From positions 1 to 35,559 of the forward strand of contig JAGCLW010000063.1 in the NCBI GenBank assembly GCA_017646805.1: a DNA stretch of 35,559 nucleotides, in the 5' to 3' direction. Origin of the DNA: Paludibacteraceae bacterium. Its GTDB lineage: Bacteria; Bacteroidota; Bacteroidia; Bacteroidales; Paludibacteraceae. Below the pieces are notes generated by a model, which was given only the letters and a program-made list of their open reading frames with translations, was not told the DNA's origin and did no database searches. The position numbers and the translations under genes were made by a program. Shown here one piece after another: positions 1 through 3,962 of the stretch. Within the stretch, counting starts at the first letter, position 1, and each line of letters opens with the position of its first letter.

Positions 1-1291
1 CTCCGTTTAGGAAATATCTTGTGCCGTCTTTCTCGATATAGATTATTCCGTTGCGGTCAATGATTTTCTTCACCTCGCTCTTTTCTACTGTGTTTTCTAC
101 TGTGGCTTCATTCACGCCAGTGGCAGGAATGGCTTGTATGTTTGTGAAATTCTCCCAGTCTTCTGCTCTTTCGTATGCATTAACGCTTCCAGCTGGCACA
201 TACAGAGGAATGTTGTAATCTGGCATATCTAAAAAACCGTTGGCGTAGCCATACTCGTTGACACATAACGGAGGGTTTGTTGCTTCCACTGTCATGCTTG
301 TCAGTCCTGTGCAGCCTTCGAACGCAGAATCTCCAATGCTTGTGACGCTGTTCGGGATGGTAATGCTTGTCAATCCTGTGCAGCCTCTGAACGCCTGATA
401 TCCAATGCTTGTCACGTCATTGCCAATTGTTATGCTTGTCAATCCTGTGCAGCCATAGAACGCCTCTCTTCCAATGCTTGTGACGCTGTTCGGAATCTCA
501 ACACTTGTCAACTTGCTGCATTTGCAGAACGCAAAATCTCCAATGCTTGTGACGCCATTGCCAATTGTTACGCTTGTCAGTCCTGTGCAGCCTCTGAACG
601 CATACTCGCCAATGCTTGTGACGCTGTTCGGGATGGTAATGTTTGTCAGTCCTGTGCAGCCATAGAACGCAAAATCTCCAATGCTTGTGACGCCATTGCC
701 AATTGTTACGCTTGTCAGTCCTGTGCAGTCTTCGAACGCAGCATTTCCAATGCTTGTGACGCTGTTCGGAATGGTAACGCTTGTCAGTCCTGTGCAGTCA
801 TAGAACGCCCCTCTTCTAATGCTTGTGACGCTGTTTGGGATGGTGACGCTTCCAGTTTTTCCCGGTGGACATATTATTAATGTCTTCTTGTCTTTGCTGT
901 ACAAAACTCCGTCTATTGAAGCGTAGTTTAAGTTGTCTTCTGCAACATTTATGCTTGTCAATCCTGTGCAGCCATCGAACGCATCTTCTCCAATGCTTGT
1001 GACACTGTTCGGGATGGTAATGCTCGTCAGTCCTGTGCAGTCACGGAACGCGGCATATCCAATGCTTGTGACGCCATTTTCTATTACAACCTTTTTGATA
1101 TCTGAACTATAAGTACTCCATGGAACATTTGATGAATCATAATCTTTCATATCTCCCGTTCCGCTGATAGTAAGTGTGCCGGTGGATGACACATAAGAGT
1201 AAGTCACATTACTGCCGCACTTGCCGCTTGCGTCTGCCCATGCGAGGGTTGTGGCGCATATTGCCACAATTAATGTAAATAATTTTTTCAT
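1..1291 (-). CDS. BspA-like leucine-rich repeat surface protein (3' end cut by window)
   Basis: Secreted or surface repeat protein of the BspA (LRR_5) type; such proteins in Bacteroidetes are often adhesins or surface scaffolds, but the ligand here is unknown. The ATG at 1291 opens a signal peptide ([19 protein letters not shown]). A short region follows ([20 protein letters not shown], typical of the BspA N-terminus), then ten LRR units of about 23 residues built on [14 protein letters not shown]-x-x-AF-x-x-CTG. The second unit is enlarged by a segment containing [14 protein letters not shown]. After the repeats comes [17 protein letters not shown], a usual end of such arrays, then a tail [15 protein letters not shown] that resembles the short C-terminal tail of many Bacteroidales surface proteins. 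About 430 codons are present; the stop lies just outside, probably within a few tens of codons. The gene is far downstream of the folded leader at 1601-1756, which may govern it. Confidence 0.9.
299..848 (-). repeat. Tandem 69-bp LRR-coding repeats
   Basis: Eight near-identical 69-bp units encode the 23-residue LRR modules of the BspA-like protein. For example the string gtgcag recurs at exactly 69-bp spacing (about 310 and 379). Two further units lie at about 955-1100, separated by an enlarged unit. Units alternate between TIPNS and TIGNG/TIGND endings. The DNA identity is high enough that copy number could change by slippage or recombination. Confidence 0.85.
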
Positions 1292-1445
1292 GTTTTTAAA
1301 ATTTTAGATTTTTGAAATTCAGTTGTTATGGTTGTTTAATGATTAAATTCGTCTTCAAATTAAAGAGTCATTGATTTCTTTTAAATAAGAAAATTTGCCT
1401 ACCTTGGTTGTGCTTAATATGCTCATAACTATTAAGATTGTTTTG

Positions 1446-1499
1446 CCTACTCTTTATCGGATTTTCGGCTTGCTCCGTCCTACTCGTTTCGTTTTTCGG
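1446..1499. repeat. Degenerate direct repeat upstream of the BspA-like gene
   Basis: Two related blocks, 1446-1468 (cctactctttatcggattttcgg) in short form cctactc...tttcgg and 1479-1499 with the same ends cctactcg...tttcgg, lie 33 bases apart. A third cctacc motif occurs at about 1399. A small perfect hairpin (aggttg/caacct, 1545-1557) is nearby. The rest of 1292-1600 holds no convincing gene. The block looks like part of a non-coding repeat family, but no second copy exists in the window to prove it. Confidence 0.4.
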
Positions 1500-1600
1500 T
1501 TACACGTTGCTTCTTTTTTGCAGAATGCAATAACACCATTTTTTAGGTTGCCAACCTTCTAAGGCACACAGTTGTTTTTAGTTACGCTCGTCAATAGCTT

Positions 1601-1664
1601 AAAAAAAATCGACCAAACACCAAAAAGAAACGTGGACATTCTCGTCTACATCCCGGGTGTTTGG
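1601..1664 (-). terminator. Minus-strand intrinsic terminator (possibly conditional)
   Basis: On the minus strand ccaaacacc (1664-1656) pairs with ggtgtttgg (1621-1613), 9 of 9 bases. It is followed by TCGA and eight T (1608-1601). The 34-base loop contains a smaller imperfect stem (1644-1649 with 1632-1637). There is no oligo-T on the other side, so it acts on minus-strand transcripts only. It sits 310 bases upstream of the BspA-like start codon. Confidence 0.55.
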
Positions 1665-1756
1665 CCTAACCCTCAATCTCAGACAAGAAATGCCCACGTT
1701 ATTAACGCAGGCATTCGTAACTGTCGTCTGAGATTGATTCCTTCGGTGGCCAAACT
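1601..1756 (-). ncRNA. Candidate structured leader RNA or attenuator
   Basis: Read on the minus strand, this block folds in two competing ways. A first hairpin has a perfect 12-bp stem (1726-1737 with 1673-1684) extended by inner pairs (1710-1715 with 1689-1694). The segment 1656-1666 (ggccaaacacc on the minus strand) can pair upstream with gtttggcc at 1748-1755, or downstream with ggtgtttgg at 1613-1621. Only the second pairing makes a stem followed by eight T. The loop of the first hairpin (1694-1700) is complementary over 7 bases to the loop of the terminator stem (1629-1635). This arrangement is seen in the sequence; a regulatory role is inferred. It could instead be a DNA-level element such as a mobile-element end. 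Confidence 0.45.
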
Positions 1757-1877
1757 TTAGGATGTTTTCAGAACAGCAACGAACGCTATGATTACTAATA
1801 TTTTATTCTATTCTATTTCAATATTCTATCTCGTTTTGTTACACAATTATTTATGTTTGAAAAATTTTTAATGGAAT

Positions 1878-1946
1878 TTACATTTTTGCTTTAGCAGCTT
1901 CTTTCATATCGGAAAATGCTTTTTTGAAAAAATTTATAACCTTCAT
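1878..1946 (-). CDS. Possible micro-ORF, 22 residues (30 from an upstream ATG)
   Basis: A very small reading frame codes for MKVINFFKKAFSDMKEAAKA and two more residues, then stops. An in-frame ATG at 1970 would add eight residues. It lies 24-48 bases downstream of a perfect minus-strand -7 box (1994-2001), so it would be the first thing translated from that transcript. The peptide is lysine-rich and could form an amphipathic helix. It resembles the N-terminus of small Bacteroidales proteins of the form MK..KxFFxxMKExAKAQ, but that resemblance is from memory. It could be a real micropeptide, a leader peptide for the folded RNA downstream, or the stump of a decayed gene. Confidence 0.4.
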   Translation of the reverse strand: MKVINFFKKAFSDMKEAAKAKM

Positions 1947-1993
1947 AATCTTAATTTTAAAATGAGGCATAAAAATTTTTTGAGTACAACACA

Positions 1994-2001
1994 CAAAGAT
2001 A
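1994..2001 (-). promoter_or_regulatory. Minus-strand -7 box (TATCTTTG)
   Basis: The minus strand reads TATCTTTGT here, identical to the -7 boxes of rimP and thrA in this window. No clear TTTG -33 element was found 19-21 bases upstream. Transcription would start near 1987 and run through the micro-ORF, the folded block and, if not terminated, the BspA-like gene. Confidence 0.5.
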
Positions 2002-3895: not shown

Positions 3896-3923
3896 TCTGT
3901 AAGTTTTTTCTATGAAAAACAGG

Positions 3924-3962
3924 AGAAAGGGTGATAATTTTGTATCACTCTTTCTTTTTTTT
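3924..3962 (+). terminator. Intrinsic terminator after the OmpA/TPR gene
   Basis: Stem agaaagggtgata (3924-3936) pairs with tatcactctttct (3943-3955) with one G-T pair, followed by a run of T to 3962. Confidence 0.85.

Follow-up and report, generated by a model that had tools for sequence, protein, structure and literature searches.

Comparison across genomes strongly supports the view that the folded block on the minus strand of the window (the whole 35,559-nt stretch analysed, part of a 1.6-Mb draft genome, G000) belongs to a strongly conserved family of switch-like leader RNAs that is very widespread in Bacteroidota. In the preferred reading, to which a probability of roughly 60% was given, this is a large family of 5' leaders that is not in Rfam 15 and would act by transcription attenuation, the window leader probably lying in the 5' UTR of a gene for a BspA-like surface protein. 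Features of the region are listed in Table 1.

Table 1. Features of the leader region and their coordinates in the window
Feature	Position	Strand	Evidence or remark
Perfect -7 box TATCTTTG	1994-2001	-	214 nt upstream of RNA; not the family promoter position
Micro-ORF, 22 or 30 codons	1878-1970	-	Real; outside the conserved element
TAATTGTG, candidate promoter of window copy	1842-1849	-	Suggested by family promoter position
Core structured leader RNA (model R1)	1622-1787	-	cmsearch 105.8 bits; covariation
5' box AGCGTTCGTTGCTGTTC	1771-1787	-	Most conserved segment
P1 5' strand (P1a 1764-1760, P1b 1755-1748)	1748-1764	-	Internal loop with invariant AA
P2 5' strand	1724-1737	-	
P3 hairpin (P3a 1716-1704, P3b 1700-1688)	1688-1716	-	
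P2 3' strand	1673-1686	-	
P1 3' strand	1649-1666	-	Conserved CC of internal loop; partner of P1 5' and anti-P1
T3' (GAATGTCCACG) with U-run 1630-1622	1622-1641	-	Terminator-like 3' side
Anti-P1 GGTGTTTGGTC	1611-1621	-	Second partner of P1 3' strand; swap test
GACGAGCGT, 3' segment able to close on 5' box	1584-1592	-	Swap test, high-scoring subfamily only
Second, degenerate DUF805b-like unit	1479-1507	-	18.6 bits
DUF805b RNA (Rfam RF02914)	1444-1478	-	45.6 bits vs gathering score 35.6
BspA-like LRR surface protein gene, 430 aa, runs off window	2-1291	-	Pfam LRR_5 E 3.4e-88; candidate target

Spread and covariation of the family

With the block as query, blastn gave a copy of 93% identity in a single congener and two others of about 73-74%; the 5' box TAATCATAGCGTTTGC recurred at further places. 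Plain blastn recovered genus-level copies and common boxes only, and a covariance model was required for wider relatives. The P1-P2-P3 architecture was common to ten copies, and a pattern scan added more. Model R1 was then available from 18 copies with a hand-written structure; the window copy, itself one of these 18, scored 105.8 bits (E 7e-21), and the copies in congeners had been found independently by blastn. In the order to which the window belongs, R1 matched 141 of 393 sampled genomes, covering 84 of 206 genera. It also matched all six genomes of the window's genus and 26/296 genomes phylum-wide, among them members of other orders in the class and two from beyond it. Well-searched genomes held 13-23 copies each. 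Closely related named matches were Bacteroidales/Paludibacteraceae MAGs, many of them recovered from the rumen or elsewhere in the gut, and the matches also included the named isolates Heminiphilus faecis AM35 and Porphyromonas sp. oral taxon 278.

Covariation was scored in three alignments. The 18 copies (A2) gave.595, against.255 ±.016 when shuffled and at most.137 when slid, with compensatory changes at 29 of 36 pairs. Among 100 matches (A3) both sides had changed at 35 of 36 pairs (score.637 vs.232 shuffled), P1 being 98% paired while its letters varied freely, and 47 further matches (A4) repeated this pattern at.606; model-fitted alignments favour the structure and shuffle tests are inflated by sequence relatedness, A2 being a plain MAFFT alignment with slid controls at or below.14. 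Missing covariation in the stems was what the sequence-only reading had beforehand set against its own proposal, and covariation proved strong in A2, A3 and A4.

Fold of the window copy

The block had a folding energy of -64.1 kcal/mol, compared with -42.0 ± 4.2 for shuffles (z = -5.3). The conserved unit begins at box AGCGTTCGTTGC (1787), and homology with the closest copy spans 1806-1465. Competing pairings noticed in the window alone were found again: GGCCAAAC(ACC) at 1666-1656 can pair with GTTTGGCC (1755-1748) or with GGTGTTTGG(TC) (1621-1611). The oligo-T terminator assigned to the second pairing stood in part: a T8 does follow GGTGTTTGG(TC) at 1608-1601, but this U8 is absent from the closest relative, and the terminator kept across the family is the earlier GTCCACG with its U-run (1639-1622). 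The 5' box has two possible partners, P3a (1718-1711) or GACGAGCGT (1592-1584), and T3' can pair locally or form 13 bp with P3b. In RNAfold the anti-P1 fold reached -82.7 kcal/mol, the fold with P1b enforced -81.8 and that with box:P3a enforced -74.1, so the anti-P1 and P1b folds are nearly equal in energy. Elsewhere in the window, on the plus strand, a strong terminator-like hairpin (3921-3958) follows a 565-aa lipoprotein-like gene at 2198.

Alternative helices

Matched and swapped duplex energies were compared for the alternative pairings, a test that also leaves relatedness in: box:P3a gave p=3e-18, P3b:T3' gave p=1e-19, and P1 3':anti-P1 was conserved among copies above 100 bits (44 of 47, p=2e-12). 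Outside that high-scoring subfamily P1 3':anti-P1 was not conserved by the same test, conservation of anti-P1 being limited to it. Two controls with unrelated segments were not significant. The helices box:P3a, P3a:P3b and P3b:T3' were each conserved beyond chance in one set, and they are mutually exclusive (1:2, 2:3, 3:4), one of them standing beside a U-run; because such exclusive helices are conserved, control of the attenuation type is the reading we prefer. P3b:T3' would form a pseudoknot across P1 and P2, and RNAfold cannot score box:P3a and P3b:T3', which would both cross P1, together. As a local hairpin ending at the U-run was seen in only 35/51 high-scoring and 30/93 lower-scoring copies, the family does not generally have a classical short terminator.

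A further helix, P0, between an upstream ACATA and a TATGT after the U-run, was dropped as weak (p=0.006 in the lower-scoring class only, p=0.10 overall). In lower-scoring copies such as L232, L244, L248 and L249, bases just ahead of the U-run (GGUUCC, for example) could pair with a GGAACC about 30 nt after it; this would give another alternative hairpin, whose loop would hold the U-run (swap test p=8e-5).

Promoter, U-run and upstream ORF

Of 142 copies, 89 had the Bacteroidetes -7 box TANNTTTG in the preceding 150 nt, mostly 50-100 nt from the RNA; the opposite strand gave 21 and shuffled sequence 12. At least five U stood directly after T3' in 121/144 copies (5.7% in controls). The gap from RNA to ORF had a median of 61 nt and contained a -7 box in one of 121 cases. 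This arrangement suggests that transcription enters the genes only by way of the RNA, and by position the family would be a transcribed leader.

These distances bear on two other views of the family. A DNA-level element, such as an integron attC-like hairpin, a MITE or a recombination site with a conserved single-strand fold, would account for dozens of copies per genome ahead of unrelated cassette-like genes and for a conserved fold of variable sequence. It is very unlikely, given the set distances to the promoter box and to the start codon and the U-run right after the 3' helix; the window copy also had no match in phage and plasmid collections, and the box pattern was absent from viral contigs, while an integron attC site is argued against only by the promoter and U-run placement. 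A family of trans-acting small RNAs lying merely upstream of genes, for which the terminator-like 3' end and the existence of paralogous families in Bacteroides (FopS, PMC11697453) would speak, is improbable, since the genes begin a median of 61 nt later without their own promoter and therefore need read-through.

For the window copy, the sole near-consensus promoter at the usual family position is TAATTGTG (1849-1842), 62 nt 5' of the RNA and one mismatch from TANNTTTG. The sequence-only reading had placed the promoter at 2001 and had included the micro-ORF in the device. Both elements are present in the DNA: TATCTTTG is a perfect -7 box, and the ORF MKVINFFKKAFSDMKEAAKAKM runs from 1946 to its stop, with an in-frame ATG also at 1970. 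They fall outside the homology with the closest copy, however, and most promoters of the family sit 50-100 nt ahead of the RNA. Control of the trp type, in which a ribosome on the micro-ORF would select the fold, could draw on an ORF of 22-30 codons with a perfect -7 box upstream. It is highly improbable: short ORFs between start site and box occurred at chance (42/82 vs 42.3 in shuffles), with no sign of a leader peptide conserved for its regulatory codons, a search of 60 relatives with the 22-aa peptide, a short query, did not recover it, and the micro-ORF already ends some 90 nt before the RNA, beyond the family promoter position. The box at 2001 and the micro-ORF may be a separate small transcription unit, or chance. 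Of the attenuation- or riboswitch-like leader first proposed, the exclusive conserved stems and the lack of a known class stand, and the micro-ORF and the promoter at 2001 lie outside the device.

Downstream genes

The downstream genes mainly code either for exported proteins, BspA-like ones among them, or for restriction-modification enzymes. Among 135 downstream proteins searched with Pfam, where a single protein may match several families, LRR_5 (BspA) was commonest with 11, followed by N6_N4_Mtase (9), C5 DNA methylase (7), MmeI MTase (5), N6_Mtase (4) and the Por secretion tail (4); PADLOC assigned type II and III methyltransferases. The high-scoring subfamily, to which the window copy belongs, stands mostly ahead of restriction-modification genes, and a crude sequence test found signal peptides downstream of 6/47 high-scoring and 54/88 other copies. 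Specificity of the RNA for restriction-modification genes was considered and dropped, as lower-scoring copies precede exported proteins.

A link to BspA-like proteins, earlier suggested from the window's own next gene, holds at family level, and the copies are not scattered without ties to downstream genes. With genes assigned by coordinates, an LRR_5 gene came next after 12 of 55 RNA copies in three genomes (G000, G004, G360; hypergeometric ~1e-14, taking the gene total as about 5300). A BspA protein begins 62-63 nt after such an RNA in three further species of the genus (L132, L150, L249), two of these proteins being 71-73% identical to that of the window.

Several loci showed other arrangements. 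At L039 (G108:C31) four 5' boxes without the full structure (62151, 63350, 64468, 64917) each stand directly before an ORF; the ORFs are DUF1016/YhcG-like by eye, with no profile search, and appear as tandem related genes with box-only leaders. A minimal version at L077 (G170:C9, 15326) consists of the box, a short hairpin to GCAAACG and a DNA-methylase-like ORF, whose relative in L087 has a full-length RNA. Copies at L112, L115, L116, L129 and L130 precede ORFs of about 70 aa that are HTH-regulator-like and mutually similar (MExxHIGxxIRxELRKQ...), and then another gene.

DUF805b and the BspA-like gene of the window

The RF02914 match is confined to 1478-1444, between the RNA and the BspA-like gene, and is not in the folded block. 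In three genomes, the window included, 9 of 12 DUF805b copies followed an R1 RNA in the same orientation, 26-144 nt to its 3' side, and therefore the window RNA, DUF805b and the BspA-like gene look like one leader. A search upstream of the three lone sites for hidden R1 copies gave none that was convincing. DUF805b sites occur also at G000:C1:1849 and C40:885, and one of the three lone sites is upstream of an LRR_5 gene.

The window gap from RNA to BspA-like gene is 330 nt, and gaps above 250 nt were found in only 3% of copies. The closest relative lies in G003, with 93% identity across the RNA and 91% along the 348 nt that align to window 1806-1465; a different gene follows it, again at a long distance (413 nt). 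Together with membership of the subfamily that mostly precedes restriction-modification genes, these distances would suit an orphan leader of a lost gene of that kind, which would now yield only a short terminated RNA or nothing and would be unrelated to the BspA-like gene. We regard this as a real but unlikely alternative: the structure is intact and its pairs are compensated, DUF805b stands on the same strand between RNA and gene as in other leaders, and the interval has no consensus -7 box. The window leader, with DUF805b after it, probably belongs to the 5' UTR of the gene starting at 1291, which it would control.

Proposed mechanism

Under attenuation, the nascent RNA would either keep P3 intact (P3a:P3b) or let the 5' box capture P3a, freeing P3b for T3'. 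P3b:T3' adjoins the oligo-U run, and the set of helices formed would decide between a stop about 60 nt before the start codon and reading on. In the window copy's subfamily the P1 3' strand would offer a second choice, P1 or anti-P1. Transcription, termination and switching are inferred, as are the direction in which control would run, its trigger and its hold on the BspA-like gene of the window. Since the downstream genes have no function in common, a global signal or an RNA-binding factor is a likelier trigger than pathway feedback.

Within the fast-changing helices some unpaired nucleotides are invariant (AA 99%, GG 99%, CC 94-97%). They could form the ligand pocket, with the AA/ACC loop, the GG and the box, of a new class of metabolite- or nucleotide-sensing riboswitch whose expression platform, which the 3' part does resemble, would be the competing helices. 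This has perhaps one chance in a few: the downstream genes lack a common pathway, unlike those of most metabolite riboswitches, and a protein or global signal would be an equally good fit.

Comparison with known systems

The Rfam 15 covariance search gave no family over the RNA core, DUF805/DUF805b appearing only 3' of it, in line with the sequence-only reading, which recognised no known riboswitch class in the fold. No description of this RNA was found in open-access papers, although an earlier one is possible, for instance among the thousands of RNA candidates of PMC8040213; judged on Rfam 15 and the open-access literature only, the family is apparently undescribed.

Trp-type attenuators share the mutually exclusive chain of helices (1:2, 2:3, 3:4) ending in a U-run, but the present family has no conserved leader peptide, a large constant P1-P2-P3 arm and unrelated downstream genes. 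Riboswitches with a terminator platform likewise place a structured domain, then alternative helices and a U-run ahead of the start codon, and differ in that the target genes here are unrelated. FopS of Bacteroides, known to us by description, is also a multicopy paralogous RNA family of Bacteroidales; it has a single-stranded 5' part and a terminator hairpin and acts in trans on start-codon regions (PMC11697453), whereas the RNA described here is a leader of about 166 nt in cis whose core is structured throughout, with no unstructured 5' seed before a terminator hairpin. Flavo-1 RNA (Rfam; Weinberg 2010, PMC2864571) is a comparable multicopy structured motif, found in Flavobacteriaceae and without clear gene link (PMC9723704), but family copies in other orders of Bacteroidia matched no Rfam family even at E 0.5. 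The DUF805b and DUF805 RNAs (RF02914 and RF03081) are known cis-regulatory motifs (DUF805b 35 nt) that neighbour the leader; they cover none of the 166-nt core, and at 3 of the 12 DUF805b sites no partner could be detected.

Implications

A wider reading, which we hold tentatively and as somewhat doubtful, is that a single phylum-wide leader class with dozens of copies per genome places phage-defence (restriction-modification) and surface-protein genes under a common RNA-level signal, as an RNA regulon answering to some ligand or protein, with DUF805b as the leader's 3' appendage. Bacteroidota are major gut, rumen and oral bacteria, and little is known of their regulation at the RNA level. A leader conserved in over a third of the order's sampled genomes would rank among the commonest regulatory RNAs of the phylum. 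The family gives the unexplained Rfam motif DUF805b a context, and it raises the testable question of which single signal suits both surface display and phage defence.
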